Assembly: GCF_007752535.1 (NCBI RefSeq)
Contig: NZ_CP036426.1
Location: 5,394,001-5,458,000, forward strand
Source of the DNA: Tautonia plasticadhaerens
GTDB taxonomy: Bacteria > Planctomycetota > Planctomycetia > Isosphaerales > Isosphaeraceae
Reading direction: 5' to 3'
Length of the DNA stretch: 64,000 nucleotides
The translations under genes were made by a program, and so were the position numbers. Of the stretch, positions 38,019-54,210 are shown piece by piece. The notes under the pieces are model-generated. The model had not been told where the DNA came from and did not search any database. It saw only the letters and a program-made list of their open reading frames with translations. The first letter of the stretch is position 1; each line of letters begins with the position of its first letter.

Positions 38019-38068
38019 TACACCCGGCAGGACTCGAACCTGCAACCCTCAGTTCCGATGACTGATGC
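38019..38068 (-). repeat. 3' tRNA-Arg fragment (att-like repeat)
   Basis: Matches the last 50 nt of the tRNA-Arg at 54137-54210, with one change (the base equivalent to U33 is A). Lacking the 5' acceptor strand and D arm, it cannot be a working tRNA. Confidence 0.9.
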
Positions 38069-38085
38069 ACGATTCATGAAACCAG

Positions 38086-38247
38086 CATGATAGCAATAAT
38101 TTAGATGGTCCCGCCCTTGGCGATGCCCACTATTTGCCCACCACTACCAATTTACCCCCCGACCTCGCTGAAGTCGTCGACGCCTGGCCGACACTGCCCG
38201 AAGTGGTCAAGGCTGCCATCCTAGCGATGGTCCGGGCGTCCCGGTGA
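38086..38247 (+). pseudogene. C-terminal remnant of a probable integrase
   Basis: In-frame residues up to the stop at 38245-38247 end PDLAEVVDAWPTLPEVVK and AAILAMVRASR. The same phrase appears at the other island edge, where it reads PDLSELIDAWPTLSEAIR and AGILAM. Such tails are known to me from the C-termini of planctomycete phage-type integrases. The upstream part of the gene is missing. Assignment is by similarity of these short tails and the att context only. Confidence 0.5.
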
Positions 38248-38367
38248 AGGGTCACTTCAACGAACCCGATCTTGAAAGGGGATGGCGGTTCCCAAGCTTG
38301 ACCACACATGCTATCTTGCTTGCAAGATTGACTCCCAATTCGAACTTAGCAGGCAGAGGTACTGTTC

Positions 38368-38709
38368 ATGAAGAACGAACGCCCTGGTGAGCCCTCCACG
38401 ACAAAATTCATCGCGAAGGTTGTCGGTCTTGCATGCGTCTCCGGGCTTCTCAGCCTGACAGTACTCCGCCTGGCATTCAACTCGGAGCAGGAGCCGCAGA
38501 TCGAACCCAAGAAAACGGTTGAGCCTGTGACGGCGTCCTTGTTGGATCATCGGATTGCCCCGGCAGATAATGCGCCAAAACAGGCTATTGCCCCAGTCGA
38601 CCAAGACTCGCTCGTGGACCTGGCAGAGGCCAAGCAGGTCGATGTGGTAGCCGATGCTGTAGCGGTGGCCGAAGTCAAGGAGGAACCCACTGATGATCCA
38701 AACCCTTAG
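38368..38709 (+). CDS. Small membrane-anchored hypothetical protein
   Basis: 113 residues: MKNERPGEPSTTKF followed by one hydrophobic segment (about 15-36, IAKVVGLACVSGLLSLTVLR) and an acidic soluble tail (EAKQVDVVADAVAVAEVKEE). It is preceded by AGAGG at a suitable distance. Codon use is less GC-rich than the chromosome, consistent with island DNA. The next ORF starts inside its last codons (ATG at 38693), suggesting translational coupling. No family recognised. Confidence 0.55.
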   Translation: MKNERPGEPSTTKFIAKVVGLACVSGLLSLTVLRLAFNSEQEPQIEPKKTVEPVTASLLDHRIAPADNAPKQAIAPVDQDSLVDLAEAKQVDVVADAVAVAEVKEEPTDDPNP

Positions 38710-38790
38710 GGCAAAGGATGCGTTCAGCCCGTATCGCTTGGCGGACTCTGCGGGGGGAAGCGCGTCGACGGACGGGTGTATCGCCCTGAA
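38693..38790 (+). pseudogene. 5' fragment of an ORF cut by the IS3-family element
   Basis: Reads MIQTLRAKDAFSPYRLADSA and continues open to the left end of the IS at 38791, where the native sequence stops. It overlaps the preceding gene by 17 bp. The original product is unknown; it is not clearly the missing 5' part of the Calx-beta gene to the right of the IS. Confidence 0.4.
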
Positions 38791-38816
38791 TTCTCTGGAC
38801 GGGGACTTGAGGCTAC

Positions 38817-39682
38817 TCACGCCGCTGTCGGGACGCCACCGTTCCGGTCCCGTCGGACCTGGCTCGGCGGCCTGTGGCCGTGGCGACCGATCTGCCATCG
38901 CTCGTCGTACGTCCGCTCGAACTCGCCCAACGCCTCGACCAACTCGGCCACCGTGGCGAACGTCCGGACCCAGAGCAGCTGCCCCTTGGGCGTGCGGATG
39001 AACCGCTCGGCACAGCCGTCCCCCCCCGGCTCCCGCACGAAGCCCGGCGCGCTGGCCATCCCCAGCAAGGCCGGCTCCCGCCGGAAGTCGTCGCCGAGGT
39101 AGTTGCTCCCGTGGTCGTGGCGGGTGGTCAGCCCACGGGCGACCCCGGCCCCGAAGCCGCCGAAGTGCTCCCGCACCCCCTGCCGCAGCGGCCCCAACGC
39201 CTCGAACCGGTCGCCCCGCTTGGCGGCGTGCAGGCCGACGCACTCGCACGTGCGGTGGTCCACCGCCACGAAGACGTGCACCGCGCCCTCGCCGGTGGTG
39301 ACGGTGGTCGTCCTGTCGGTGCCCCACAGCGCGTCCGGCTCCTCGGCCGTGATCGTGCCGTCGTGGGCCTTCGGGCCGCGGGCGTGGCCGCCCCGGCCGG
39401 GGTCCGGAGGTGGTGCCCCCGCATCAGCCGCCGCACCCGCCCGGACGCCGTGCGGATGCCCTGAGGCCGCAGGCGGGCCCAGGCCTTGCGGTAGCCCTCG
39501 CCGGTGAACGGGCTCTCGGCCGGCACCCGGCGGATGTGGACCACCAGCCCCTCGTCGGTGGCCGCCCCGGCCGGCCCCCGCTTCCCGGGGGCCGGCCGCT
39601 GCTCCGGCGGGACGGCCTCCCGGGCCTTGAGGTCGTCGGCCGTCGCGCGGGCCAGGCCGAAGATGCGGCAGGCCCGCTGCAT
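38817..39682 (-). pseudogene. IS3-family transposase OrfB (DDE integrase core), frameshifted
   Basis: The N-terminal part (39682 to about 39400) contains SPFTGEGYRKAWARLRPQGI, the HTH_21/IS3 OrfB signature. The rest continues in another frame: VFVAVDHRTCECVGLHAAKR, DHGSNYLGDDFRRE and DGCAERFIRTPKGQLLWVRT, which include the second Asp and the Glu of the DDE triad. The first Asp is expected in GTDRT, just before the VFVAVDH phrase. The shift is near 39385-39400. The intact family enzyme would cut and join the IS ends. Confidence 0.8.
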
Positions 39683-39720
39683 GCCGTACCGCTTGCCGGT
39701 CGAGGGGGAGGCGGACCGGC

Positions 39721-40059
39721 TCAGGTGCTCCGCCTCCCCGACGCGAAAGGGCGGCCGCCCTCCAGGTGCCGGCACCTCATGCCGAGCGGCTGGCGATCCA
39801 TCGTCAGCTGGCCGCCCTCGGCCTGGAGCCGGGCGATCAGCTGGTCCCGGTCGTCGGCCGGCCGGCCCTCGAGGGCCGCCGTGCCGCCGTCGAGGAAGCC
39901 GTCCCGCCAGGAGGAGAGGGTGGCGGCGGTGACGCCCAGCTCCCGGGAGAGGGTGTCGAGGTCCTCGCCCCGGAGCAGGCGGACGACGGCCTCGGCCTTC
40001 CGCCTGGCGGAGAACCGGCCCCGATCTTGGGAGTCGGTCTGGGTGCGGTGCTTGGTCAT
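39721..40059 (-). CDS. IS3-family OrfA (HTH protein)
   Basis: 112 residues: MTKHRTQTDSQDRGRFSARRKAEAVVRLLRGEDLDTLSRELGV with a LSRELGVTAATLSSWRDGFL helix-turn-helix (about residues 37-56) typical of IS3 OrfA, followed by an extended C-terminal part. In IS3 elements, OrfA is joined to OrfB by programmed -1 frameshifting; whether the join site survives here could not be judged. It lies just inside the right end of the IS. Confidence 0.75.
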   Translation of the reverse strand: MTKHRTQTDSQDRGRFSARRKAEAVVRLLRGEDLDTLSRELGVTAATLSSWRDGFLDGGTAALEGRPADDRDQLIARLQAEGGQLTMDRQPLGMRCRHLEGGRPFASGRRST

Positions 40060-40108
40060 CTCGGGCACTCCTTCCTGGGCCATCATGCCCATGAGAGTGT
40101 CCAGAGAA

Positions 40109-41194
40109 AATCTCAGGCGATGGACCAGCAACAGTGCGGGGAGCTTCATCGATCGCGTCGGCCCCTCCTCGCTGGCATCATTCACGGTCAGCCTCGACTC
40201 CGCCAACGCCTCGCCCATCACCCTCAACTACATCACCGCCGACGGGACGGCCGTGGCCGGCAGCGACTTCTCCGCGGCCTCCGGCACGCTGACCTTCGCC
40301 CCCGGCGTGACGACCCAAACGATCTTGGTCCCGATCCTCGACGATACCGCCGTCGAGCCGGACGAGACGTTCGCCGTCATCCTGTCGAATCCGGTGGTCG
40401 CGACCATCGTCGACGAGCAGGGCCTGGGCTCGATCGCCGACGATGATGCGACCTCGATCCAGGTGGCCGTGATCTCCCCGGACTTCGTGTCGAAGGGCTC
40501 GTCGGTCGACGTGACGATCACGGGGGCCGGGTTCGTCGCCGGGGCGTCCGTCACCTTCGAGAACGGCCCAGGGCCTGCCCCCTCGGCCTCGAACGTCGTG
40601 GGCGTGGATTCCACGACGATCACGGCCACGATCGCCGCCCCCAATGGCGGCCCGAAACGTGACCGGGTCTGGGACGTGCGTGTCACCAACCCGGACGGCT
40701 CCTCCGCCATGCTGGCCCGGGGATTCACGGTGACCGCCGGCAGGAACTTGATGGCCGCCTCGACCGCGGGTCCTGGCACCGACGCCGAGCCGTTCTACCG
40801 CTGGCAGCTCCGCTTCGCCCTCCGCTCCACCCGCGCCTCCTGGCGCGACGCCGGTGCCGACCTCGGACGCCTCGGCCCGCTCCACATCCGCGTCGCCGAC
40901 CTGCCCGGCACCACCCTCGGCCGGGCCGACGGCACCACCATCACCCTCGATCGCGACGCCGCCGGTCACGGCTGGTTCTTCGACTTCACGCCGGGCGATG
41001 CCTCCGACGTGTCGGAGGGTCGCATGGACCTGCTCACGGCCATCGCCCACGAGCTCGGCCACGCCCTGGGCCATGACCACGACCACGAGGACGACGTCAT
41101 GGGCGAGGTCCTCGACCCCGGCGTCCGTCGCCTGCCGGACCGGGACTCGCTCGTCCCGCGTCCCGGCCGGGTCGACCGATTCTCCTCCCGCTGA
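40109..41194 (+). pseudogene. Calx-beta/IPT-like protein with C-terminal metzincin-type metalloprotease, 5'-truncated
   Basis: The reading frame enters directly from the IS end with no start codon, so the 5' part is missing. A Calx-beta domain (ASFTVSLDSANASPITLNY, YITADGTAVAGSDFSAASG, LSNPVVATIVDEQGLGSI) lacks only its first strand. An IPT/TIG-like domain follows (VAVISPDFVSKGSSVDVTI, VTNPDGSS). The C-terminal matrixin-like module has HELGHALGHDH, the metzincin HExxHxxGxxH zinc motif, followed by a DDVM Met-turn. The original protein was probably secreted. What remains is 361 codons. Confidence 0.8.
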
Positions 41195-41267
41195 TCCCGA
41201 CCCCGGACCACCGACCCGGGACGACAACGAACGTCCGTGATCGTTCGATGTCCCTGGCGTCTGCAAG

Positions 41268-41306
41268 GCCGACGAGCCGTCCCCTCCCGTCGGCGGGCTC
41301 GTCGGC
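41268..41306. terminator. Hairpin after the metzincin gene
   Basis: 11-bp perfect stem (41268-41278 with 41296-41306) with a 17-nt loop, about 75 bp after the stop codon. GC-rich and without a U-tract. Possible terminator. Confidence 0.35.
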
Positions 41307-41436
41307 CCGACGCCCGTCCTCCGGTCGGGCCTAGCCCTCCGGGGGACGACATGCTGATCCACCGATCGCCCCCCGGAGTCGCCGGGGATGCGCCCTCCGA
41401 CCGCCCTCGGCCCCCCGACCGTAGGAGACCCTTGTG

Positions 41437-41850
41437 ATGCTCTCGAAGCTCTTTGCCGAGGAACTGATCGCCCGGTCGATGTCCCGGCTGGCCACTCATC
41501 TCGGCGGCGGACTCCTGGGCCTCGCATCCCTGGGCTGGATCGCCACTCACTGCGGCCCGCCGACCGGCCGGGCGGTCATCCACGTCGCCGAGGCCGACGT
41601 CGAACTCACCGTGGGCGCGAGCTCCTACCGGATCGAGGAGCTCCGCCCCGCCCCGATCATCTGCGAGTTGCCCTCCGGCGTGCACGAGCTGGTGCTGCTC
41701 CGTGAGGGCCGCGTCCTCCGTCGCGAGTCGTTCTCCCTGCGCGGCGGGGAGAGTGTCGTGCTGACGGCGTGGGATCCGGTGCGTCTGAGCGGGGGGACGG
41801 AGACGGGAGCGGACCGGGCTCGGGACCTGGCGGCCCCACCCGCCCAATGA
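41437..41850 (+). CDS. Small membrane protein with PEGA-like beta domain
   Basis: 137 residues. The ATG at 41437 (a GTG lies directly upstream) begins MLSKLFAEELIARSMSRLATHLGGG, followed by a hydrophobic helix (LLGLASLGWIATHCG, about 27-41). The rest is beta-rich: RAVIHVAEADVELTVGASSY and ICELPSGVHELVLLREGRVL resemble a PEGA-type repeat, a small surface-exposed domain. It probably has one membrane anchor and an outer beta domain. Located just after the truncated metzincin gene. Function unknown. Confidence 0.6.
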   Translation: MLSKLFAEELIARSMSRLATHLGGGLLGLASLGWIATHCGPPTGRAVIHVAEADVELTVGASSYRIEELRPAPIICELPSGVHELVLLREGRVLRRESFSLRGGESVVLTAWDPVRLSGGTETGADRARDLAAPPAQ

Positions 41851-42178
41851 TCGGCTGCTCCGCTTGCTCAGATGCGTGATTGGGGGCAGGATACGCACCG
41901 ATGAACCGCCTCTCGCCACCGAGCGTCGGTGCCTGGCAGTTACCTGCCATGAGACCAGATTCCCGTCCAGAGATCCCAAAGGCGGTACACGCCCAGGTTT
42001 GCATCCGATCTGGAGCGACCAGCGGCGATCGTCAGGAACACGACCAGGGCGGCGGAGCTCATGGAAGAGCGTCGTCGGCCCTCGACGCCACGACAGCATC
42101 CCGGAGGATGGTCCCGTTCGGAAGCCTGAGACCGCACCGGCGGCCACCTAATCTTATTAGTAGATATTACGATATTGT
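41851..42178. other. Gap with AT-rich end
   Basis: No gene recognised. The last 45 bp before the lipoprotein stop (42130-42178) are unusually AT-rich for this genome (ATCTTATTAGTAGATATTAC), which may mark a foreign junction or terminator. Confidence 0.5.
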
Positions 42179-42676
42179 CTAGAATTCTTCAAGGTCGAAT
42201 GTGAACGAGTTCGACCGTTCCTCGACGGTGGCCGTCAGGCCCGACGTATCGGCGAGGGAGTACTTGGAGGGGACGAGCGACTTGCCCTTCTGGGTCGCCA
42301 TGGCGATCTCGTGCTGCCGGCCGCCGCCGCCCTGCTCCATGATGGTCTTCTCCACGGCGGTGTTGTCGACATTCAAGGCGGAGATGGTCACCTTGTAGTC
42401 TCCCGGGAGGGCCCCATCCCCGGGCGTGAGTGTCGTGAGGCGGAAGATGCCGTCCTGGATGGTGCCGGTGGCAGGGCGGCCGTTCTCCAGGTCTGTCGGG
42501 ATGAAATCGATGCGCCCCTTCTCGAGCGGCGCTCCCTTGAAGGTGACCTTTCCGGTGACGGAGTAGCGCTTGCCGATCCCGGTGTCGTCGCCGCATCCGA
42601 GGACGACGATTAGGGCTGCGCCGGCGAAGAGGGCAGAGGCGTTCCCCCAGGCCGTGGGAATTTGTCGCGTGCTCAT
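42179..42676 (-). CDS. Carboxypeptidase-regulatory-like planctomycete lipoprotein
   Basis: 165-residue lipoprotein: MSTRQIPTAWGNASALFAGA, then a hydrophobic run and the lipobox VVLGC. The mature part (YSVTGKVTFKGAPLEKGRID, FIPTD, RLTTLTPGDGALPGDYKVTI) matches the small 'carboxypeptidase regulatory-like/transthyretin-like' lipoproteins very common in planctomycetes. It usually sits next to DUF1559 genes, as here (DUF1559 gene 161 bp upstream on the same strand). Probably exported and membrane-anchored; function unknown. Confidence 0.85.
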   Translation of the reverse strand: MSTRQIPTAWGNASALFAGAALIVVLGCGDDTGIGKRYSVTGKVTFKGAPLEKGRIDFIPTDLENGRPATGTIQDGIFRLTTLTPGDGALPGDYKVTISALNVDNTAVEKTIMEQGGGGRQHEIAMATQKGKSLVPSKYSLADTSGLTATVEERSNSFTFDLEEF

Positions 42677-42837
42677 GGGGACTCCGTGGATGGTCGGACC
42701 GAGTTGGGAGGGGGTCGCCACCTCCCCGGCCCGGGGGCGCCCGCAGCAGCGGGTCCCCCGGGCGAAGGGACGAGGCGTGGGGCCTCCTCCCCGGGGAAGC
42801 CCCTAGGGGAGGAGGCCGGCGTGGCTCACGGGCGCAA

Positions 42838-43974
42838 TCAATACTGGTCGGCGCTGACGACCTCGCCGCCGTTGCGGCTGCCCAGGGCGTTGTAGGTCAC
42901 GTGATTGATGCTCTCCTTGAGGAACCGGACCGAGCCGTCGGCGAAGAGGAAATTCGCCCCGCCGGGATGGCGGCTCACGAAGCCTTTGGCCGAGGCGGCA
43001 TAGCGGCAGCCGAGCGGGGTGCTGGCCCCCTGCCAAGCGCCGTTGCAGGCGGGGTCGGAGGCCGGGACGGAATTGGCGTCCCAGCCGAGGGGGACGGTCG
43101 TGCCCGAGGCGCAGCCGGTGGAGGTCCAGAAGTTGTTGTTGGCGTCGGCGGCGGGTAGGACCTCGCCGACGAAGATGGTGTTGCTGGTGCCGTCGCGCAC
43201 GCTGGCGATTGTGGCGATCTGCATCGTCGAGTAGTCGCCGAAGCCGCGGAGCCTGCCGGCGTTCAGGGTGAACCCGCCGGGCAGTCCGCGGTGGGTGCCC
43301 CAGTAGCCGTGGTGGCCGATGCGGGGAGTGCCGGGCGGGAGGGTGGTGACGGTGGGGGGAGTCTCCCAGGGGAGACCCCCCATGAGCGAGCCGCCGGCGT
43401 AGTTGTCGCCCCAGCTGATGGCGTAGTTGGTGATCGGGACGACCTGAAGGACCTGGCCGGTGAAGGGGTTGAGCGGCGGGTCCCACGCCGGGGACTGGCC
43501 GTCGGGGTTGGGATAGCCGCCGGAGAAGGTGCCGGCCCAAGGCCGGGTCCCGTTGTCGTTGTCGCCGTCGGAGGGGCAGATGAAGGACGACGGCACGGCG
43601 AGGTAGGCCGTGAAGGCCTGGCCCCGGTCGAGGGCGCCGACGCCCATGTTGATGTTCATCGCCGCGTAGGCATTATTCCCCTCGATCTGGGGGAGGATCA
43701 GCACGGTCCAGGGCATGAAGTTGGTGCTCCAGCCATCGCCGTTGCTGCGAGAAATGGCGCCGGGCGGGAAGCAGCCCTGGGTGTCGAGGTAGTTGTGCGA
43801 CGCCAGGCCGATCTGCTTCATATTGTTGGTGCACTGGGCGCGGCGCGCCGCCTCGCGTGCGGCCTGGACGGCGGGCAGCAGCAGGGCGATCAGGACGCCG
43901 ATGATGGCGATCACCACCAGCAACTCGATCAGCGTGAAGCCGCGTCGCGGCATTTTGAATCGATCGCGAGCCAT
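42838..43974 (-). CDS. DUF1559 (prepilin-like) protein
   Basis: 378 residues. Starts MARDRFKMPRRGFTLIELL with the type IV prepilin-like leader RRGFTLIELLVVIAIIGVLI; cleavage is expected after Gly (GF). NNMKQIGLASHNYLDTQGCFPP (from about residue 48) and ANFLFADGSVRFLKESI near the C-terminus are the two hallmark DUF1559 blocks. Dozens of such proteins occur in planctomycetes; they are thought to be secreted or pseudopilin-like, but their function is unproven. The next gene on the same strand, 161 bp downstream, is the lipoprotein. The IS at 44.35 kb lies 375 bp upstream and may affect its promoter. Confidence 0.92.
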   Translation of the reverse strand: MARDRFKMPRRGFTLIELLVVIAIIGVLIALLLPAVQAAREAARRAQCTNNMKQIGLASHNYLDTQGCFPPGAISRSNGDGWSTNFMPWTVLILPQIEGNNAYAAMNINMGVGALDRGQAFTAYLAVPSSFICPSDGDNDNGTRPWAGTFSGGYPNPDGQSPAWDPPLNPFTGQVLQVVPITNYAISWGDNYAGGSLMGGLPWETPPTVTTLPPGTPRIGHHGYWGTHRGLPGGFTLNAGRLRGFGDYSTMQIATIASVRDGTSNTIFVGEVLPAADANNNFWTSTGCASGTTVPLGWDANSVPASDPACNGAWQGASTPLGCRYAASAKGFVSRHPGGANFLFADGSVRFLKESINHVTYNALGSRNGGEVVSADQY

Positions 43975-44349
43975 GGAATCGACTCCCCCCGCGGGGACGC
44001 GGGGAATTCCGGAAAGGAAGGACGGGAGTGTTACGGGATTCCGCTCGATCCGGCCGGGAGATGAGGCCCGGCCTGCGGCCCGTACGTCGGAGGACGAGGA
44101 AGGCCCTCCGATGGTCGCGCCGCCGTGAAGGGATAGGGTCAACCGAGCTCCAGGCCCAGCGCAATTGAACGAGCCGCCGCGACCGTGCGGGGGCAAATCC
44201 GGTGGTCTCCGGATCGATCGGGTGGTACGACCGTCGCCGGGTCCATTGGCGTCTACTCCTCGAGGCACATCCCTCGTCCCCCGACCGCCATCGTGCTGAC
44301 CAAGGGATGATTAGATCACCACCTCCCGGTGCGTACAATAAAAAAATCT
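43975..44349. other. Upstream region of DUF1559 gene, ending at the IS
   Basis: About 375 bp between the DUF1559 start and the IS left end, including an AT-rich run (about 44308-44347). It presumably holds the promoter. No gene recognised. Confidence 0.5.
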
Positions 44350-45731
44350 CTGACTCTACCGGATTGCAGGTCTGGGACTTCTGAAGCCCATCAGCGAGGT
44401 GGACGCCATGAGGTTGTGGAGCCAATGCTCATGGTACCGCTTGCCGTTGAGCCGATGCGCCGGCCTGTCGTAGGGTCAAGGGCGGTTACTCCGCCGGGCA
44501 TAGGGGCGGAAGTTCTGCAGCAACTCCCAGCCCCGCAGCCGCAACTCCGACGAGCCCTGATGGCCGTGAAGCCCTCGGCCCGCGTACGTCAGCCCCACAG
44601 CCGGTTCATCGGCCGGTCCACCGCGTTGCTCGTCCGATGGCACCCCGGATCGTCATCGGCCATGGCGTAGGCTTCCATCTTGCCCCACAGCTTCTCCAGC
44701 ATCTCGCACACCGCGGCGGTCCAGGCCTGCGTGCCGCACCACTGACGAAGCTCGCCCATCAGGCGGCGGAACTCCTCCGCGGTCGCGGCCCGGTAGACGT
44801 CCCAGACCCGGCGGTGCAGCTCTCGGGCCTTGCGGCAGCGGTCGCGGACCTTCAGGAACCCGTGCAGGAAGCAGAGCACCACCGCGATGGCGGGGAAGAG
44901 CGCCAGGAACGCGTTGCGCGTCGCCGCCCAGCCGTCGGTGTTGACCGTAGCGGGGGTATACTCCGGATCGACGTCCCGCGCCTCGTCGGCGAAGACGCCG
45001 TAGGCCTCTCGGAGGTGGACGTCATCGGCCGCGGCCGTCAACGCCACGCCAAGGAGGCAGCCGCCGCCGACGGTGGTCGCCACGTAGCCCTTGCGGCCGG
45101 CCCAGTCGGCGTGATGCTCGTCGGCGGCCAGATGCTGGGGCAACCGGGCCGGGTCGCGGACGGTGGCCCCCACCGAGCTGCTCCGCCCCAGCCGCTCGAC
45201 GACGCGATGCCAGTACATGTCGCCGTGGCCATAGCCGGCCGTCAGCAGCCAGGCCGGGACGCCATGAGCGGCCAGGAGCAAGGGACAGGCCAGCTCCTCG
45301 ACGTTGCCGATCATGTAGCCGGCGACGAGGCTGGGGCGGAGCCAGTAGGAGGCGCCATCGGCCGTGACGACCTTCCGCAGCTTGATGCCGGGGAGCTTGC
45401 GCGACGGGCGGCCGAATCCGTGCAGGCGATAGCCGCGGTCGAAGCCCGGCGGGAACAGCTCCGGGGCCGATTGGACCCATTGCGCGACGGCGATCCGCGT
45501 GCGTTCGGCGTCGTGCCAGGTCTCGTCGTATTGCTGGCGAGTCATGGGGATGACGATCTGTTCGGCCCCGCGTGGCGGTTGCGGCACGGGGGCGTCTCGC
45601 TCACGATTGAGCCGCCGGGTCTCCGGTCGAGCGTCCATCTTCGCATCCTCTTCTATAGCAAGAAGGAGGATGACGGAGATGCCGCCGGCCGTATACCCGG
45701 CACTGCAAGACCTGCAATCCGGTAGAGTCAG
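44350..45731 (-). mobile_element. Insertion sequence with 24-bp terminal inverted repeats and 7-bp target duplication
   Basis: The left TIR 44350-44373 is the exact inverted complement of 45708-45731 (24 bp, starting CTGACTCTACC). It is flanked by the 7-bp direct repeat AAAATCT (44343-44349 and 45732-45738), showing a real transposition event. It carries one DDE transposase gene whose original stop would fall in the left TIR. The gene is damaged, so the copy is probably inactive alone. The family could not be named; the transposase is MULE/IS256-like in its CxxH motif. Confidence 0.8.
44356..45638 (-). pseudogene. DDE transposase with CxxH motif, frameshifted
   Basis: The start MDARPETRRLNRERDAPVP (ATG 45638) follows GGAGG-like sequence. 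The ORF runs to a TGA at 44589, caused by a lost base in a G run near 44600. Downstream homology continues in another frame (YAGRGLHGHQGSSELRLRGW), is interrupted again by TGA at 44476-44478, and ends PRPAIR at a TAG inside the left TIR. ADEHHADWAGRKGYVATT has the first candidate Asp and NTDGWAATRNAF the second. VLCFLHGFLKVRDRC has the CxxH signature, and a Glu follows. The enzyme would have been about 427 residues. Confidence 0.75.
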
Positions 45732-45988
45732 AAAATCTCTGCCGTCAGGGGGTGTATGCGTGACAGAATGCATGGCGGCCGAAATCCGGCTGGGCGGGGC
45801 GATGGGAGCCGTTCCGTCGACCGCGATCGGAGGGATGCGGCCCAATTGATCGCAGGTCTCCGCCATAGCGGCGGGCGTCCCTCCCAGCCTCCGCCGCCCC
45901 GGCTCCCCGCCGCCTCGTGGCGAGAGGGTCGGACGCCCCCAGGAGCGGAGACGCGAGCGGTACGGGGCGGCCCCCGGGGGGCGACCCA

Positions 45989-47302
45989 TCACGGCCGGGG
46001 CGGATCGGGTTCGGTGCCGGACCGGGCGAGGAAGCGGTAGAAATTGCCCAGGTCGGCCTGCCCGCGACGATCGAAATAGTCGGCTAGGAGCCGGCACGTC
46101 GGGGCGTGGTCGGGGCGATCCCGGGCGGTCTGCTCGGCCCAGCGGAGCCCTTCCTCCTCGTGGCCGTTGGCCATCATCCAGGACGCCACCTCGAAGCGGA
46201 CCTGGGGGTCGAGCGGCGATCGGACCAGGCGGTCGCGCAGCTCCTTGATCCGGTCCTGATCGGCCCGGAGGCGGTCGGCGAGCACGCGATCCCGGGCGGC
46301 CTGATCGGGTCGCCCCAATCGGTCGAGGACCAGCCCCCGGCGATAGAGCAGCTCGAAGTCCTGCGGGCAGCGGCGGATCGCCTCGTCGAGCGACGCAAGG
46401 GCCCCCTCGAGGTCGCCCCGGCGCAGGGCGACGGCGGCCAGCTCGGCGAGGACCTGGGGGTCGTCCGGGTCGAGCCCGGCCGCCTTGCGGAGGTGGTCGG
46501 CCGCCTCGTCGTCATCCCCCTGCTCGGCGGCGATCAGCCCGAGGCCGAGCAGGGCGGCCGGCGACTCGGGGTGACGCCGGAGATAGGCCTCGTATACCTC
46601 CCTGGCCTCGGCGAGGCGGTGATCCGACCGCAAGGCATCGGCCAGGCCCAGCCTCGCCTCTTCCAGGCCCGGGTCGCGAGCGAGGGCCTCCCGGTAGCGG
46701 TCGATGATGACCTGCGGGCTGGCCAGGGAGCGGCGGTCGACCTCGACCTGCCAGAGATGGGGGGTGGGGTCGTCCGGCGCCTCCCGGGCCCAGCGCGAGA
46801 GCACAGGGGTGGCGGCCTCGATCCGGTAGGAGTTCAGGTAGATCCGGGCCAGCTCCCGTGCGACCTCCGGATTGGGGCCCGTCGAGGCGTCCATCGCCTG
46901 GCGCAGGAGCGGTTCGGCGGCGGCAGCCTGACCCGATCGGGCGAGGGCGATCCCCTCGATCTGCCGGGTCGGCCCGTCGGGGTAGCCCAGGGACCGGGCC
47001 CGGGAGATGGCCCGGAGTGCCTCCCCCGCGTCGGCCCGACCGAGGTCGACCCGGGCCTTCAGGAACCAGGCCTCGGCGTCGCCCGGGCGGGCGCGGAGCC
47101 AGCGATCGATCCGGGTCGTCGCGTCGTCGAGGCGTCCGGCCGCGAGGGCGGCCCGGGCGGCCCTCGCCTCCATGAAGGCCGGGAGGCCGAGGCACAGCCA
47201 GCCGACCGCCGAGAGGAGGGAGATCAGGGCCAGTGCCCCGGCCGCGTGCCGCCATCCCGGGGCCCTAGGGCCGGCCGGGCGGTTCGGAGGACGTTCGCTC
47301 AT
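45989..47302 (-). CDS. Tetratricopeptide-repeat protein, membrane-anchored
   Basis: 437 residues. The start MSERPPNRPAGPRAPGWR was chosen at 47302. A transmembrane helix at about 22-44 (LALISLLSAVGWLCLGLPAF) is followed by a long TPR array: RAALAAGRLDDATTRIDRWL, LGLGLIAAEQGDDDEAADHL, AAVALRRGDLEGALASLDEA and similar 34-residue units to near the C-terminus. It probably acts as a periplasmic or cytoplasmic scaffold for a protein complex. Upstream, the LRR lipoprotein gene is divergent with about 235 bp between. Function unknown; TPR content is clear. Confidence 0.85.
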   Translation of the reverse strand: MSERPPNRPAGPRAPGWRHAAGALALISLLSAVGWLCLGLPAFMEARAARAALAAGRLDDATTRIDRWLRARPGDAEAWFLKARVDLGRADAGEALRAISRARSLGYPDGPTRQIEGIALARSGQAAAAEPLLRQAMDASTGPNPEVARELARIYLNSYRIEAATPVLSRWAREAPDDPTPHLWQVEVDRRSLASPQVIIDRYREALARDPGLEEARLGLADALRSDHRLAEAREVYEAYLRRHPESPAALLGLGLIAAEQGDDDEAADHLRKAAGLDPDDPQVLAELAAVALRRGDLEGALASLDEAIRRCPQDFELLYRRGLVLDRLGRPDQAARDRVLADRLRADQDRIKELRDRLVRSPLDPQVRFEVASWMMANGHEEEGLRWAEQTARDRPDHAPTCRLLADYFDRRGQADLGNFYRFLARSGTEPDPPRP

Positions 47303-47538
47303 GAGTTCCACCGGGGTTCGCCCACAGGAGGCCGGTCGGCCCGACCGGACCCCCTTCCTCCAGGTTGACACAGGACCCCCGCCGACGCCACGGGCTTTCC
47401 TCGATCGTGGCCCGATCGCCTCGGGCGATCCCCTGGCCCGGGCACCGGCGGGTGATATGCTGGATCCCCTCGGGATCGTCGGGCCGCCCTCGCGGTCGAT
47501 CCGCATCCATGAGCAGGACACGATAACGGGGATCCGTG

Positions 47539-48447
47539 ATGGGTATTCCGGGGTTCGCGAGGCTCGCCCTGATCGCCGCGATCGCCGCCGGGTGCTCGGG
47601 GTCGGGCTCGGGGTCCGAGCCGGTGGGCCTGGACAGGCTCCGGAGCAGGCCGGAACGGCCCGGGGATGCGACGGGGCGGGGCGATCCGGGCTCGGCCGCC
47701 CGGGACGACGTCCGGCGGCACGGGGGAATCCTCGAATACGACCTGGGCCGCCCCGGTCGGCCCGTCATCGGGGTCAAGTTCGGCGCCGCCTTCGGCTCGA
47801 AGGGGGAGATCACCGATGTGAGCCTGGCCCGGCTGCCGGAGCTGACCGAGGTCCGGTCGCTCCTGGTCCACGACTCGAAGGTCACCGACGAGGGCCTCCG
47901 GCCGCTCGAAACCTTGCCCCACCTCGACACTCTCGGCCTGGTCCGGGCCCCGATCACCGACGCGGGCCTCCGGTCCCTGGAGATGCTGACCGGGCTCCGG
48001 TCGCTGGACCTGACCGGGACGGCGATCACCGACGCCGGCCTCGCCCGCCTGCGCGGCCTGACGAACCTGGAGACGCTCCGCCTCAGCGGCACCCGGATCA
48101 CCGGCGCCGGGCTGGCATCGCTCGAGGGGATGACCGGGCTCCAGGACCTGCTCCTCGAGGGGACCGGGGTGGATGACGAGTCCCTCGCCTCACTGAACGG
48201 CTTGACCTCGCTGGCGAACCTGAACCTCGGCGGGACCCGGGTGACCGACGAGGGACTGGAGCACCTTCTCGGGCTGACTTCGATCCGGACCCTGGGCCTC
48301 GGCAATACCTCAATCACCGATGCCGGGCTGGGCCGGCTGGCCGGGCTGCCCGACCTGCAATTCCTCTCCCTCGGCGGTACCCGGCTGACCTCCCCGGGCG
48401 TCGACCGGTTCCATGAGGAACGGCCCGACGTGCGCCTCGCGCGCTGA
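47539..48447 (+). CDS. Leucine-rich-repeat lipoprotein
   Basis: 302 residues. The ATG at 47539 (a GTG precedes it at 47536) begins MGIPGFARLALIAAIAAGC, a lipoprotein signal with AAGC lipobox. After a low-complexity Ser/Gly/Arg linker, about eight LRR units follow (LPELTEVRSLLVHDSKVTDE, LTGLRSLDLTGTAITDAGLA, LTNLETLRLSGTRITGAGLA, LTSIRTLGLGNTSITDAGLG), each of about 24 residues, of the bacterial TDxGL type common in planctomycetes. It is probably exported and surface-exposed, binding proteins. It converges with the sugar dehydrogenase gene, 24 bp from stop to stop. Partner unknown. Confidence 0.88.
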   Translation: MGIPGFARLALIAAIAAGCSGSGSGSEPVGLDRLRSRPERPGDATGRGDPGSAARDDVRRHGGILEYDLGRPGRPVIGVKFGAAFGSKGEITDVSLARLPELTEVRSLLVHDSKVTDEGLRPLETLPHLDTLGLVRAPITDAGLRSLEMLTGLRSLDLTGTAITDAGLARLRGLTNLETLRLSGTRITGAGLASLEGMTGLQDLLLEGTGVDDESLASLNGLTSLANLNLGGTRVTDEGLEHLLGLTSIRTLGLGNTSITDAGLGRLAGLPDLQFLSLGGTRLTSPGVDRFHEERPDVRLAR

Positions 48448-48471
48448 GGTCCGAGGTCGGCCTCCGGACGA

Positions 48472-51423
48472 TCATCGGAGCGACGATAGGTATTCGAGGA
48501 GATCCGCCGCCTCCTGGGCGGTGAGGCCCCGGAGCAGGAGCTCAGGCATCAGCGAGTCCGGCTGGGTGCGGATCTCCTCGACCTCCGAGGAGTCGATCCG
48601 GATCTCCTGGCCCTGGGCGTCCCGGAGGACGACCCCCGCCCCGTCGTCGGCGATGAGCAGGCCGGAGTGGATGCCGCCGGATTTCGTGGCGACGAGGTAG
48701 AGGGCGTAGTTCGGCTCGATGACGAGCGATGGCTCGATGATCTGCCGGAGCAGCTCGGCACGCGGATACTTCTCGCCGATCCGGCCCAGGTCGGGCCCGA
48801 TCTCGACGCCGATCCCGCCGAGGCGGTGGCAGCTCTTGCAGTTGACGGCCGACTCGGCGGCGAAGATCGCCCGGCCGCGATCGGCGTCCCCCTGCAGGGC
48901 GAGGATCTCGCCGGGGTCGATCCGCTCGCCGAGCCGTCGGACGCGATCGGCCTCGGGGACGAATCGCTCGAACAGGTCGCGCACCTCGGGGGCCGGGTGT
49001 GACCGGGTGGCCTCGAGGATCTCGAGTCGGACCGCCTCGGGAACCGTCCCGAGATCGATCGCCCTGGTCAGGGCGATCGCCCCGCTCGTCGAGGAGATCA
49101 GGCGGCGGATCGCCTCGGCCCGGGATGGCTCGGCCGACCCCGATGCGTCGAGGAGCGGCTCGACCAGGGCGGCGAGCCCGGCATGTTCGGCCTGGTCGTC
49201 GGCACCCGGCAACTGCGCGATCCACCGATAGATCAGGTCGAGTGCCTCCTCGTCGACCATCCGGGAGCCGATCCGGGGCATCCTCGCCCCGCCGAGGGAC
49301 GCGATCCGGTAATAGAGGACCGACCGCCCCGGCTCCCCCGGGGCGACGATCCTCGCGTCGGAGATGCCGAAAGTCCCCTGCACCGGCGAACCGCCGACGA
49401 GCCTGGTGTCCTCGAGCGATCGGCCGCGATCGAGCTCGATGAAGGAGTTGCCGCCACCGTCGGCGACGTGGCAGATGGAGCAATTGACGTGGAGATAGGT
49501 CCGGGCGCGGTCGTCGAGGTCCGCATGCTCGTCGTAGGGGTCGACGAACCGGGGGAGCGAGCCCGGATCGCTCGCGAGCGGGGCCTTGAAGATGCCGATG
49601 TGATCGAGGGCCCGGAGCTGATTGTCAGCGACCCCGCCGTAGTCGTGCTGCCGGTTCAACTGCGACGTCTTCAGGCCGAGGACGAACCCAGCCGCCCGGG
49701 AGTGGCAGAACATGCACTCCTCGCGGGCGGGGACGCGCCAGGTTTGCTGTCGGATGCCGCCGGGGGCGGCCGGGTCGGCGACGGAGAGGAGACGCTCCGC
49801 CCCATCCCTGCCGACGAGCGTCGCCTCGGACCGGGCATCGTCCCAGAGGTAGGAGTAGCCCATCCAGTGATCATCCTGCTTGAGGAGGATGCGCGTCTCG
49901 ATCGGTGTCCGGGAACTCGGCTCGCCCGCCTCCAGATCGAGGGAGAGCGTCTGGACGGCGACCATGCCGTCGGGATAGCCCCAGGAGTCGGCGTCGGAGA
50001 TCTGGGCGTCATCGGGCAGGGCAAGCAGGCGATCCGCGAGGGCGCCGTCGGCCCACTGCGGGGCGTTCACCGAGTAGGGGATCACCCCGGGCGCCGGCTC
50101 CTGGTCGGGGACGGAGGCGAACAGGCCGGTCTCGCCGAGGGTCCGGGGGAAGGTGGCGGACGCGGTGCCGGGGGACGATCGGCGCAGGGCGTGGATGAAG
50201 CCGGTGGTGTTATCGACCGCCAGGATCTCGCCGTCCCTCGTGACGGCGAAGCTGGCGATGAAGACGGCCGTGTCGGCCAACTCGTCGTGCCAGGTGACGT
50301 GCCGGCCTTCGTCGCGGAGGCCCCAGATCTTGCCGTACTGATAGTCGCCGTAGATGTAGGCCCCGCGCAACTCGGGGAAGCGGTCCCCGTGGTACACGTA
50401 CCCGCCGGTGATGGAGCGGCACTCGGCGTGGTGGTGCTCGACGACCGGGGGGAGGATCGGGCCGGGCCCGGCCCTTTTGTGCGGATGGAAGGGATGGCTC
50501 CCCTCCTGGACGCTCCAGCCGTAATTGCCGCCTTTGCGGACCTCCCAGATCATCTCCCAGAGATCCTGGCCGACGTCGCCGACCCAGAGCCGGCCGGTTT
50601 CGGGGTCGAAGCTCATCCTCCAGGGGTTGCGGAAGCCGAAGGCCCAGATCTCGGGCCGGGCGCCGGGATGTTCGACGAACGGGTTGTCGTGGGGGATCGC
50701 GTAGTTGCGGCCGGGGTCCGGGCGATCGACGTCGATCCTCATGATGACCGAGAGGAGGTCGTCTACGCCCTGCCCTGTGTCGTCCACGTCGGAGCCGCCC
50801 GACCCGTCGCCCGTGCCGATGTAGAGGTAGCCGTCGGGGCCGAAGATCGCCTCGCCGCCGTTGTGGCCGCCGGCCGGCCACTCGATGATGACCTGCTCCG
50901 AGTCGCGGAGGACCGTCCCCGAGCCGTCCGGATCAACCCGGAAGCGCGAGACGCGGCTCATCGCCGATTCGGCCGAGCCGTCCATGGGGGTCGGGCTGAA
51001 GATGAAGATTTCGCCGTTCTCCTCGTAGGCCGGGTGGTAGGAGAAGGCGTAGATCGTCCGCTCGGCACTGAGATCGAGGACGAGGTCGGGCTCCCGGACG
51101 TCGGGGTCGTCGATGGAGAGGCTGAAGACCTTTCCGCGGTTCTCGGCCACCCACAGCCGGTTGGCCCCCGGCTCCTGGGCGATGCAGACCGGCCCCTGGA
51201 AGGCGATGTGGGGGAAGACCCGATCGAGCCGGAAGGGAGGCGGCGGCTCGGGGGAGCCGACGAGCCTCGATGTCGTCCACGGGACGCGTCGCTCGACCCC
51301 GAACGGCCGGTCAGGTGGCGACTCCTCGTCGCCCCGGGGGACGAACCCGACCGCGAGCGCCAAACCCGGCAGGAGCCAGATCTCCAGGAATCGATCGCGA
51401 TGGCGCATGCGGGCGTCCCTCAT
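48472..51423 (-). CDS. PQQ-type sugar dehydrogenase fused to multi-heme c-type cytochrome
   Basis: 983-residue exported redox protein. The start MRDARMRHRDRFLEIW (ATG 51423; ATG 51408 is an alternative) leads into a hydrophobic segment. Residues about 60-440 form a glucose/sorbosone dehydrogenase beta-propeller (GGHNGGEAIFGPDGYLYIG, GFRNPWRMSFDPETG, GNYGWSVQEG). The middle resembles the SO2930-type cytochrome family, with CMFCH (about 569) and CSICH (about 648). The C-terminal part has CKSCH (about 858) and a TIGR02603-like heme-binding block. Three CxxCH motifs imply covalent hemes for electron transfer from sugar oxidation to the respiratory chain; the cofactor and substrate are inferred. 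Confidence 0.9.
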   Translation of the reverse strand: MRDARMRHRDRFLEIWLLPGLALAVGFVPRGDEESPPDRPFGVERRVPWTTSRLVGSPEPPPPFRLDRVFPHIAFQGPVCIAQEPGANRLWVAENRGKVFSLSIDDPDVREPDLVLDLSAERTIYAFSYHPAYEENGEIFIFSPTPMDGSAESAMSRVSRFRVDPDGSGTVLRDSEQVIIEWPAGGHNGGEAIFGPDGYLYIGTGDGSGGSDVDDTGQGVDDLLSVIMRIDVDRPDPGRNYAIPHDNPFVEHPGARPEIWAFGFRNPWRMSFDPETGRLWVGDVGQDLWEMIWEVRKGGNYGWSVQEGSHPFHPHKRAGPGPILPPVVEHHHAECRSITGGYVYHGDRFPELRGAYIYGDYQYGKIWGLRDEGRHVTWHDELADTAVFIASFAVTRDGEILAVDNTTGFIHALRRSSPGTASATFPRTLGETGLFASVPDQEPAPGVIPYSVNAPQWADGALADRLLALPDDAQISDADSWGYPDGMVAVQTLSLDLEAGEPSSRTPIETRILLKQDDHWMGYSYLWDDARSEATLVGRDGAERLLSVADPAAPGGIRQQTWRVPAREECMFCHSRAAGFVLGLKTSQLNRQHDYGGVADNQLRALDHIGIFKAPLASDPGSLPRFVDPYDEHADLDDRARTYLHVNCSICHVADGGGNSFIELDRGRSLEDTRLVGGSPVQGTFGISDARIVAPGEPGRSVLYYRIASLGGARMPRIGSRMVDEEALDLIYRWIAQLPGADDQAEHAGLAALVEPLLDASGSAEPSRAEAIRRLISSTSGAIALTRAIDLGTVPEAVRLEILEATRSHPAPEVRDLFERFVPEADRVRRLGERIDPGEILALQGDADRGRAIFAAESAVNCKSCHRLGGIGVEIGPDLGRIGEKYPRAELLRQIIEPSLVIEPNYALYLVATKSGGIHSGLLIADDGAGVVLRDAQGQEIRIDSSEVEEIRTQPDSLMPELLLRGLTAQEAADLLEYLSSLR

Positions 51424-52751
51424 GGGTTCGGGACCATCCTGAGAGTCAGAAGATCGTCGTCACGGGCGATCCCCGGGTGATCCGGACCGGGCGGCCGGTC
51501 GGAACCGGGACGGTGGCCTCGTGCGGCAAGCCGAAGGCGTGGAGGATGGTCCGGCCGGAGATCCGCCTCCGGGAAATCGCCCGCGTGGCCGTCGAAGCAG
51601 TATTGTCGCAGGGGCCCCGACACGGCCTCCTGGTCTGTGCCGCCTCAGACGAAGCCCTGTCCGGGCCATGCGTATCGTCCGCCTCGAGTTCGGAAAGGCG
51701 AGGTCTCGCAACGACCGTCACGACAGAGAGAATCCCCTGCGTGCCAGGATCCATGCCCGAGCCGAGGCAGCATCCATGACGGGCCACCTCCGTAATGACG
51801 ATGGTCGGAGCGACTCGCCCGCGAACCACTGTCATGGTCGCAGATCCGCCGGCGTTCGTCGAAATCGGCTTCACGAATCCCGAAATTGGGAGGGTGCCCG
51901 TGGTGCTCGTCCGACCCGCGAGCCCCCGGCGGCGTGATCCGCTCGGCTCCCCCCGGCCACGGCCCCATCCCCACCGACCGTCGATGGTCGGGTCGGCGGG
52001 AGGCCAAGGCGGGGGCGTCATCGTGCTACGCAAGTCCAAAGATAATAACGGTTAATGGCGGCCGCAACCTGCGACTCATGAGGCCAGCGATGTGCCTGCC
52101 TCCTGGCGATGGCTTGCTGACCTCGTGGGAGTACGAGCCCGGCCGTCCCATAAATTATCCTGGATTTTCCGGATGGGCCTTGACTTCGACAAACAGATAG
52201 CCGGCGGCGTCATCTGGGGCAGGACGTCCCCGATTCGTGGATCTCGGGACGGCCGGAGGGCGGTCCGGTCGTGGGGCCGGCCGGGGTCGTGCCGGGCCCA
52301 TGCGCATAAAGCGGCTTGCCGGACTGGACGACGGGCTGCGTCACCTGGGGCAGAGGACTCAAATCTGAAGAAACGGTCATTGCAGGCCGTGGACCCGCTC
52401 CCCCGGTGATCATAACGCCCGGCCCTCCAGAGAGGGCGACACAAACCCCGTCGGCTCGGGGCGTACTCGTCCGGATCGGTTTCGGCACCGATACCCCCTG
52501 TTCTTTCCGCTGCTCTCAGCGAAACGCGACGCCAGAACCACCCCCCGAAGTCGGCCCCCTTCGGGCCCCCCGTTCTAGCACCGGCGCCCACCAGTTCCTT
52601 TCCCGTTCTGTGGAATGGCTGGCGCCGAAACCCCGACGCCCCCGGTCCTGGCACCCTCCATTCCGTTCTCCCTCGGTTTCAGGCGGGATGGCGGCGTAAG
52701 ATCCACCCGGCGTCGGAACTGCTCCCTGAAGGTCGGGGCGATCTCCCGACC
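51424..52751. other. 1.3-kb stretch without a supportable gene
   Basis: Between the dehydrogenase start and the HTH cluster. No frame gives recognisable residues, and base composition is more mixed than in neighbouring genes. It probably contains the dehydrogenase promoter and degraded island DNA. Confidence 0.6.
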
Positions 52752-52997
52752 TCAGTCGGCCCGCCGCTCTGCCGTCGCGACCGCCTCGGCCAGCCCGACA
52801 TAGCGGGGGTCGCCGGCTCGACCCGCCTTGATCCAGCATTGCGAGGTCCGCTTCCTGGTGCCGGACACCTCCACCGCCTGGTCCCGGGACAGGCCCTCGA
52901 CAATCCCCCAGGACAGGGCGACCAGCCGACCCGGCGTGTCGAGGCTCGGTCGGCCGCCCTGATCGCCCGACAGGTTTCCCTTATTATGGTGTGGCAA
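52752..52997 (-). CDS. Small helix-turn-helix protein (third of a tandem cluster)
   Basis: 81 residues if read from the TTG at 52997, which overlaps the end of the previous ORF by 14 bp; no ATG is available. The sequence GRPSLDTPGRLVALSWGIVE followed by GLSRDQAVEVSGTRKRTSQC and WIKAGRAGDPRYVGLAEAV has the layout of the terminase-small-subunit-like HTH proteins: a helical opening, an HTH, then a WLxxGRxxDP phrase. Function unknown. Unusual start, so confidence is limited. Confidence 0.5.
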   Translation of the reverse strand: MPHHNKGNLSGDQGGRPSLDTPGRLVALSWGIVEGLSRDQAVEVSGTRKRTSQCWIKAGRAGDPRYVGLAEAVATAERRAD

Positions 52998-53412
52998 CGG
53001 TGCGGAAATTCTCGGCCTTGAGCCGCTCGATCGTCCGGCGGTAGGCCTCCCACTTCCCCCGCGCCGCCAGCCACGCCAGGCGACGGCTCCAGAACCCGAG
53101 CAGCCCGAGCCGTTCCTTCCAGTACTCCTCCCGAGCCCGCTTGAACCGCGTCCATCGCTCCTTCGACTCGGCCTCGTAGCGATCCCAGGACGCCCGGAGC
53201 CGCTCCCGGCGACGCAGCGCCGCCACCCGATCGACCCGCTCGGCCCAGGCCGCGAAGGTCGGCTCTCCTTCCCGGCCTCGTCGGAGCCAGTCCTGGAGAG
53301 TCCGTCGGCCGATGCCGACTGCGTCGGTCGCCTCGCTCCGGGACCGCCCTCCGGCAAGGAGGCGGAGGAACTCCTCGCCGACCTCTGGGCTGAACTTGGT
53401 GGGTCGTGGCAT
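52984..53412 (-). CDS. Helix-turn-helix protein, terminase small subunit-like (second of the cluster)
   Basis: 142 residues starting MPRPTKFSPEVGEEFLRLLA at the ATG 53412. GGRSRSEATDAVGIGRRTLQDWLRRGREGEP (about residues 21-51) is the HTH, with the WLRRGR phrase shared by its two neighbours; the remainder is long and basic (LRASWDRYEAESKERWTRFK, YRRTIERLKAENFRTVA). Such proteins are annotated as phage small-terminase or transposon accessory DNA-binding proteins; no large terminase is nearby, so the role is open. It lies inside the island beside the tRNA end. Confidence 0.6.
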   Translation of the reverse strand: MPRPTKFSPEVGEEFLRLLAGGRSRSEATDAVGIGRRTLQDWLRRGREGEPTFAAWAERVDRVAALRRRERLRASWDRYEAESKERWTRFKRAREEYWKERLGLLGFWSRRLAWLAARGKWEAYRRTIERLKAENFRTVATP

Positions 53413-53443
53413 GGATCGGGCTCACCGGCGAGGGGAGGAGGAG

Positions 53444-53875
53444 TCACCGTCGCGGCTCGTCGAGCAGGGCGAGGCGACCGCAGTAAGCCTCGAGCTCCGC
53501 GTCGGTCATCTGCGAGAGGGGCTTCGGTGGCGACGGGTCCGGCGCCCGGTCCTTCCTCCGCCATCGGGCCGGGAACCGGCGCTCCAGGAGCCAGGCGCTG
53601 GCCTGCCAGGAGCCGGGGATGCCCTCGGACCCGGCGCGGCGGATCGAGTCCAACGCCGCGATCTCGGCCGAGGCGACCGCGGCCCGATAGTCCCGTCGGA
53701 AGGCCCGATAGGGGGCGTCGTGCTCGTCCCTCGAGCGTCCCCGTACCAGCCATCGTCGAAGGGTGCTCCGGCTGATCCCGGCGGCCCGGCAGGCGGGCCC
53801 GGGGAAGCTCCCCGCCCGGAGGGCTTCGAGGAGGGCTCGGATGGTCTCGGGGTCAGGCGCGCTTGAGCGGCTTAC
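53444..53875 (-). pseudogene. Helix-turn-helix protein, first of the cluster, no start codon seen
   Basis: The frame from about 53875 reads PDPETIRALLEALRAGSFPG, PACRAAGISRSTLRRWLVRG, AFRRDYRAAVASAEIAALDS, WQASAWLLERRFPARWRRKD and ends LLDEPRR. That is the terminase-small-subunit-like HTH layout. No ATG, GTG or TTG precedes the HTH in frame; a TTG at 53653 is internal. The integrase-tail stop codon at 53872 overlaps its beginning, suggesting either a truncated gene or readthrough/frameshift from the upstream ORF. Confidence 0.5.
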
Positions 53876-53982
53876 CGGTCCCTCCGTCCGCCCGAGGAGG
53901 CCCCGGCCATCGCCAGGATGCCGGCCCGGATCGCCTCGGACAGCGTCGGCCAGGCGTCTATGAGTTCGCTCAGATCGGGTCC
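53872..53982 (-). pseudogene. C-terminal remnant of a probable integrase at the right island edge
   Basis: The last 36 residues read PDLSELIDAWPTLSEAIRAG then ILAMAGASSGGRRDR and stop at 53872. They align closely with the remnant at 38 kb. Upstream residues in the same frame run into the tRNA gene and are not protein. It lies about 150 bp from the tRNA-Arg 3' end, the usual place for an integrase gene. No catalytic domain remains. Confidence 0.5.
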
Positions 53983-54136
53983 GGCCCCGTCGTCAGCGGT
54001 AGCACTGGCGGTAGCAGTCAGGAGACGGGCGGGGGCAACTCGTGGCGGCTCCCGGCGAGATTCGCGGCCGGAAGATTCGGCATCAGGTTGACGCAAGCCC
54101 TTGTGAGAGTCGGGCTTTGGAGGGACGTGGCGGAAG

Positions 54137-54210
54137 TACACCCGGCAGGACTCGAACCTGCAACCCTCAGTTCCGAAGACTGATGCTCTATCCAATTGAG
54201 CTACGGGTGC
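54137..54210 (-). tRNA. tRNA-Arg (anticodon UCG)
   Basis: 74-nt cloverleaf read on the minus strand: acceptor GCACCCG with a matching 3' strand (final pair G-U), D arm GCTC...GAGC, anticodon stem TCAGT/ACTGA with loop CTTCGGA (anticodon TCG, reads CGA), variable loop GGGTT, T arm GCAGG/CCTGC with loop TTCGAGT, discriminator A. CCA is not encoded. Its 3' half is duplicated at 38019-38068, so it is the probable attachment site of the island. Confidence 0.93.

Follow-up and report, generated by a model that had tools for sequence, protein, structure and literature searches.

Three consecutive ORFs (A, B and C) lie on the minus strand of the window, the whole 64-kb stretch of Tautonia plasticadhaerens DNA analysed here, behind an integrase-tail peptide and beside a tRNA-Arg(TCG) gene. 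The features referred to below are:

54136..54210, minus strand: tRNA-Arg(TCG), the attachment target; nt 25–74 (54186–54137) correspond to the att repeat
53998..54016, minus strand: arm-type pair TGCTACC-N5-TGCTACC (53998–54004 and 54010–54016)
53872..54012, minus strand: integrase C-terminal tail peptide (ending in DLSELIDAWPTLSEAIRAGILAMAGASSGGRRDR and a stop), left behind by the split of the integrase gene
53444..53875, minus strand: ORF A, TerS-like; coding from 53875 to 53447, stop at 53444–53446; start codon lost
52984..53412, minus strand: ORF B, TerS-like HTH, intact; ATG start
52752..52997, minus strand: ORF C, TerS-like HTH, degenerate and shortened in the window; TTG start at 52997
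52336..52751, minus strand: conserved non-coding unit end with GGYGCC..AACC-type inverted repeats
52336..54066, minus strand: repeated unit (tail, A, B, C and the non-coding end), one of four genomic copies
38123..38241, plus strand: second, inward-facing tail of the antisense class (tail from 38143), with an arm-type pair
38123–38131 and 38134–38142, plus strand: arm-type pair ATGCCCACT/TTGCCCACC before the second tail
38019..38068, minus strand: att repeat of 50 bp, 98% identical to tRNA-Arg nt 25–74

All three ORFs have an HTH and a phrase of the W-L-x-x-G-R type (RRWLVRGR in A, QDWLRRGR in B and QCWIKAGR in C), as described in the first-pass annotation of the window. Its account of the starts also agrees with the coordinates: the head of ORF A is without ATG, GTG or TTG, and ORF C has a TTG start and overlaps ORF B by 14 bp (52984–52997).

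A repeated unit in the genome

The unit is a dispersed repeat with four copies in the 9.4-Mb genome, located at C1:5446.3–5448.1 kb (the window), 3273.7–3275.4, 224.6–226.2 and 2868.7–2871.8 kb, the other three being found at 86–91% DNA identity. All four copies contain the tail, A, B, C and the conserved non-coding end, and they agree up to one common right edge. The non-coding end (52336–52751) may be a packaging or regulatory site. Two fragments with only the right end are found at C1:3199.9 and 2911.1 kb (L104 near 6879–7049 and L105 near 7143–7224) and are probably further decayed elements. The 2868-kb copy is split by a transposase-bearing insertion of ∼1.5 kb in the start of ORF C (L010:7714–9230).

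The copies differ in how well they have been preserved. Where the window reads GTAAGCC at the head of A, the other three read ATGAGCC, and this start overlaps the TGA stop of the tail (ATGA). ORF C has an ATG at the position of the window's TTG in the 224-kb copy and a later ATG in the two others; the window copy has neither ATG, its HTH is changed and its stop comes early. Because of these losses in A and C we read the window copy as a decaying remnant of an element, from which the integrase core is also missing: there was no match to a PF00589 integrase core in the window, and none to the split-type cores described below in its first 56 kb. Across the four copies dN/dS is 0.33–0.71 for A, 0.38–0.81 for B and 0.48–0.91 for C, so that A and B look constrained (mostly 0.33–0.5) and C less so. 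The ORFs are thus more than chance open frames, since the unit recurs three times elsewhere in the genome, dN/dS is below 1 and one common TerS profile covers them all.

Several readings of the unit's ends were rejected. A transposon with its own ends does not fit a left side that varies by tRNA class, and the sharp right end is unexplained. We discarded a tRNA-derived att site there, as the T-loop-like letters do not track tRNA identity, and the paired elements give no support to the right end as an integrase gene start (an MTVxSxL.. reading).

The triplet, for which the first-pass annotation proposed a survey of other planctomycete genomes, was found in this genome only. An A-family gene does stand beside such a tail in four further genomes, within elements of G042 and G006 and, in degenerate form, of G002 and G003.

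Similarity of A, B and C to terminase small subunits

ORF A matches phrog_4102 (terminase small subunit) with E = 4e-27 and ORF B with E = 5e-9. A single TerS profile, built from 40 IMG/VR relatives of A and our own four rows, matches all three window ORFs (A, E = 1e-41; B, 2e-10; C, 0.004) as well as C of the other three copies (E = 5e-6 to 1e-9). A carries the SWQASAW..ER signature of the TerS alignment; in B and C the profile match falls largely on the HTH. For the AlphaFold model of A (pLDDT 87), the five best PDB matches in Foldseek are all Sf6 gp1 TerS, with weak E-values (0.09–0.14) and a probability of 1.00; a sequence search of the PDB gave no match. Sequence and fold place A within a known TerS family, and B and C over the HTH only. 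The likeness to terminase small subunits proposed in the first-pass annotation is therefore borne out by phrog_4102, by the TerS profile and by the Foldseek ranking.

The gene neighborhoods of the relatives of A point in the same direction. Scanning IMG/VR gave 88 relatives, of which 80 were kept as loci, and a large ORF lies just downstream of the A relative in 36 of 37 viral loci. After removal of two near-duplicates, a scan of the remaining 34 downstream ORFs assigned 23 to a single TerL family, and the families named were all terminases. A scan of genome contigs with A returned no relatives. Within the planctomycete loci searched, the TerS profile matches 17 ORFs at E < 1e-3. Fourteen are directly downstream of a tail on the same strand, and the remaining three (L103, L107 and L108, loci fetched because of A) are in prophage-like TerS–TerL–portal rows as read by eye. 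The absence of a large terminase from the window, also claimed earlier, agrees with the lack of any match to PF03237 (one TerL family) in the whole genome.

A, B and C also match transposase or excisionase models weakly (E 0.001–0.07), which, together with the operon position behind the integrase and the largely HTH-bound profile matches of B and C, would suit regulators or excision factors (RDF/Xis or a transposase-derived HTH) that control the element and take no part in packaging. We consider this unlikely given the phrog_4102 match and signature of A, the first rank of Sf6 TerS in Foldseek and the TerL genes that adjoin relatives of A. From the earlier suggestion of accessory DNA-binding factors for excision or packaging we therefore keep the TerS likeness and the mobile element at a tRNA attachment site, whereas a direct role in excision found no support.

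Tails and catalytic cores of a putative split integrase

A profile of the four tails gave matches at E ≤ 0.01 in 36 of 59 genomes. The weakest of the matches read were false; those at E 0.0024–0.0063 in G014, G050 and G038 were set aside as dihydrolipoamide dehydrogenases. The good matches are short ORFs beside a tRNA or tRNA fragment and come in two arrangements. In the sense class the tail follows a sense tRNA, with an ATQNAT-like stretch ahead of the tail. In the antisense class it follows an antisense tRNA fragment that is read as GGxRTPDxRIM, with an AHHLPT-like stretch. The amino acids of the tails are conserved, with dN < dS in 890 of 900 pairs (47 distinct tails) and differences of 0.33/0.23/0.54 at codon positions 1/2/3.

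Matches to the corresponding core family at E ≤ 1e-30 are found in 122 of the 198 genomes of the class. Tail and core share an ORF at none of 30 core loci across the class; 25 of the 30 core ORFs run towards a downstream antisense tRNA, which in 24 cases lies 111–249 bp after the core. The core of the G003:C15 element matches PF00589 only, and the catalytic motif and Tyr remain in the core. Viral contigs scanned with the cores gave no relatives.

Two integrase cores in the T. plasticadhaerens genome end against tRNA-Ser(GCT) and tRNA-Ser(TGA), and repeats of these tRNAs stand before the tails of the 224-kb and 2868-kb copies, respectively. The tail with A-B-C at C1:224.5 kb pairs with the core at 250.5 kb through a 57-bp identical tRNA-Ser(GCT) repeat, and that at 2868.6 kb pairs with the core at 2903.9 kb through a 60-bp tRNA-Ser(TGA) repeat with 58 identical positions. 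Reading downstream from 12 tail regions gave a core and an att repeat in seven; the core is absent downstream in the other five (the window, the tRNA-Met copy and three others). The overlap of ORF A with the integrase tail is present as first annotated. We do not regard it as incidental, the tail being the C-terminal part of an integrase gene that integration separates from its catalytic core.

In the window, nt 25–74 of tRNA-Arg recur at 38019–38068, and the att repeats therefore bound a 16.1-kb island (38019–54136). It has an inward-facing tail at each end, of the antisense class on the left and the sense class on the right, with no core between them, and contains genes for GSDH/cytochrome, LRR, TPR, DUF1559 and other proteins. 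In our reading, two elements inserted at one tRNA, and the island is what is left of them. A congener (G001) has the same tRNA-Arg with a syntenic upstream flank, followed by a sense-class tail 85% identical to that of the window and no A-B-C. A tRNA-Ala(CGC) called at 43821–43908 is probably false, being reported by ARAGORN only, inside a DUF1559 gene, and not found by Rfam. At one further locus (L086, G017:C536), the ARAGORN calls on the two sides of a single att repeat disagree (tRNA-Pro towards the tail, tRNA-His towards the core), which may reflect a chimeric tRNA produced by att exchange.

Gene content of the elements

The paired copies belong to two complete split-integrase elements, E9 (27 kb) and E10 (37 kb), with the TerS triplet at the tail end. 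Bounded by core, tail and tRNA repeats, they have the integrase and att sites of a PICI-like satellite; the window copy has no core. Primase or helicase genes adjoin the core and primase PHROGs are found in both; E9 has an AAA_25 helicase and an XRE gene beside the core. The 20–30 kb between the ends hold mostly host-like or IS genes. A PHROG scan of 28 E9/E10 proteins (part of the E10 genes) found no head, tail or TerL family. A terS without TerL or capsid matches among the 28 proteins, a replication module and a small regulator make up the gene set of a phage satellite as far as the definition of PICIs in PMC6092414 goes. The elements are likely to work like satellites; membership of the PICIs cannot be claimed from sequence.

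Elements in other genomes differ in content. In the smallest complete one (7.4 kb, at tRNA-Cys in G003) the integrase is accompanied by an HTH_17 protein, a CHC2/Toprim primase and DUF3987. Behind the tail of the G042 element lie restriction genes, an A relative and two DUF5681 genes, one of them under the curated cut-off; no TerL was seen among the 14 called genes of this element, which include TerS/DUF5681 and type I restriction. Most tail-bearing elements have no TerS-like gene beside the tail. The cargo of two split-integrase elements (L081 in G042:C2, and L139) includes Ser/Thr kinases and type I restriction genes.

The units might instead be the terS ends of ordinary tailed prophages that have lost their TerL, capsid and tail genes. 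In favour of this, A relatives in true prophages of the family (L103, L107 and L108) precede TerL- and portal-sized ORFs (by eye), and the tail of L074 is followed by a small ORF and then a TerL-like ORF. Decay of this kind would nevertheless have had to leave A and B complete in E9 and E10, spare their replication genes and an integrase core that looks intact, and remove every structural protein from the 28 scanned; the G042 element likewise retains its genes with no TerL seen. We hold the prophage origin to be improbable. The genome also has two prophages with portal and TerL-like genes (L246, C1:2392–2411.9 kb; L247, C1:3485–3504.9 kb), which differ in GC3 and one of which has a TerS matching the A profile (E = 1.4e-7).

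A probable attachment site within the integrase gene

The arm-type pair at 53998–54016 contains the only two TGCTACC in the window. TGCTACC is found at 12-bp steps on both sides of the att core in four of five sense-class elements, and TTGCCCACC-like repeats at 11-bp steps (single copies in some) on both sides in 9 of 17 antisense-class elements; the other eight have no such arm pair on both sides. TTGCCCACC occurs once in the window, before the second tail at 38143. The TGCTACC-N5-TGCTACC pair is present in 23 of 300 loci, and those that can be placed are sense-class tail or core sites. Because of their spacing and symmetry, these direct repeats, one helical turn apart and within coding sequence, may be integrase arm sites.

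Tails and cores were also joined in silico. The pairs were picked by eye, non-exhaustively, from two listings, with tail and core on the same contig and strand and the tail first. In a first version, three crossover points were tried for each of 26 rows, and 21 rows were in frame at the best one. In the strict version each pair is joined at the longest exact repeat, and three rows are dropped: G023_b (core shared with G023_a), G050_d (no repeat) and G013_b, whose tail is directly behind the core so that its "repeat" is the same DNA. The remaining 23 pairs are from Isosphaeraceae and relatives and are 5–72 kb apart. With one third expected, 22 are in frame, and 20 are open through the tail. In 20 pairs the exact att repeat, in most cases derived from a tRNA, is 25 bp or longer; of these, 19 are in frame and 17 open (binomial P 1.2e-8). 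The open joined ORFs are 515–615 aa long. As for the joins that are not open, the frame of G023_a differs at the exact block and is restored at the end of a longer gapped match, and stops occur at aa 440 in G006:C272 and at aa 271, in the core, in G042:C1. The open frame crosses the tRNA-derived core in two opposite tRNA orientations. The joins thus place the putative recombination site within the integrase ORF, as in a self-splitting integrase.

Long open frames are common at high GC and lone tails occur at many tRNAs, yet a tail that is an independent small gene merely beside att, joined in frame as a by-product of GC-rich sequence, is very hard to reconcile with the excess of in-frame joins, the conserved amino acids of the tails and a frame that continues through the tRNA-derived core in both orientations.

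Discussion

We propose, with a probability of roughly 0.72, that A, B and C form the TerS module of a phage-satellite-like integrative element that has its attP within the 3′ part of the gene for its own integrase, and that what is left in the window is a dead remnant of one such element. The circular element would have one ORF of core, att and tail (about 520–615 aa), followed through the ATGA overlap by the TerS genes A, B and C. Integration into a tRNA gene would cut this ORF. The catalytic core would stay at one end of the element by one att copy, and the short tail would come to lie with A-B-C at the opposite end, which in the sense class is immediately behind the tRNA. Most likely the TerS genes would mark the element's DNA for the TerL and capsid of a helper phage, as terS does in SaPIs. 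The proposal is based on sequence, namely the four copies, the TerS homology, the att repeats, the in-frame joins and two triplet-bearing pairs without TerL or capsid matches. From these we infer the circle, packaging, use of a helper and any effect of the split on integrase activity. The circular form can only be inferred, as no unsplit core-and-tail gene was seen in genomes or viral contigs.

More generally, there is probably a widespread planctomycete element family whose whole attP, with arm-type repeats on either side of a tRNA-derived core, falls within the integrase coding sequence, and integration therefore removes a conserved C-terminal tail; some of its members would be phage satellites with tandem TerS genes translationally coupled to the tail. 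Since the catalytic domain remains whole and only the tail is lost, the resident enzyme may be altered and not dead.

The closest parallel is with the SSV-type (suicidal) archaeal integrases, for which a 2021 review describes an attP within an integrase gene that is split by integration into a tRNA gene; there, self-disrupting integrases are called exclusively archaeal (PMC8371274). The planctomycete genes likewise have attP inside the integrase gene and are cut in two at a tRNA. In contrast, they are bacterial with a PF00589 core, and the C-terminal tail comes off a whole catalytic domain, whereas the SSV-type split separates the N-terminal part from the catalytic part. Of the marks of the SSV type, the Phage_integr_3 domain is not matched by the G003:C15 core, and the N-terminal part is not split off.

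With the PICIs (SaPIs and those of Gram-negatives), going by what PMC6092414 gives as their traits, the elements share an integrase at a specific att, small HTH regulators, a primase/helicase, cargo such as defence genes and a terS without TerL or capsid. They differ in that att is inside the integrase gene and the integrase tail is directly followed by three TerS-like genes, in their planctomycete hosts and in a much larger cargo, and are known here from sequence. Similarly, the HTH, long helix, SWQASAW..ER signature and adjoining TerL of viral relatives are those of phrog_4102 and Sf6 gp1-like TerS, but the planctomycete elements have no TerL and carry the gene in three diverged copies. Our literature search, with thin coverage of subscription papers and preprints, found no bacterial self-splitting integrase, and no described phage satellites of Planctomycetota.

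If the proposal is true, Bacteria would have their first family of self-splitting integrases. The split would be a switch between integrating and resident forms of the integrase, and in the sense class it would place the operon of tail and TerS genes under the tRNA promoter. With its paired ends present in many genomes, a bacterial family of this kind would make the purpose of the split testable in bacteria. It would also account for the orphan ORFs ending in ..AWPxLPExxRAGILAMVRA beside planctomycete tRNA genes, offer a base-exact way of delimiting islands at these genes, and point to TerS-carrying phage satellites in Planctomycetota.
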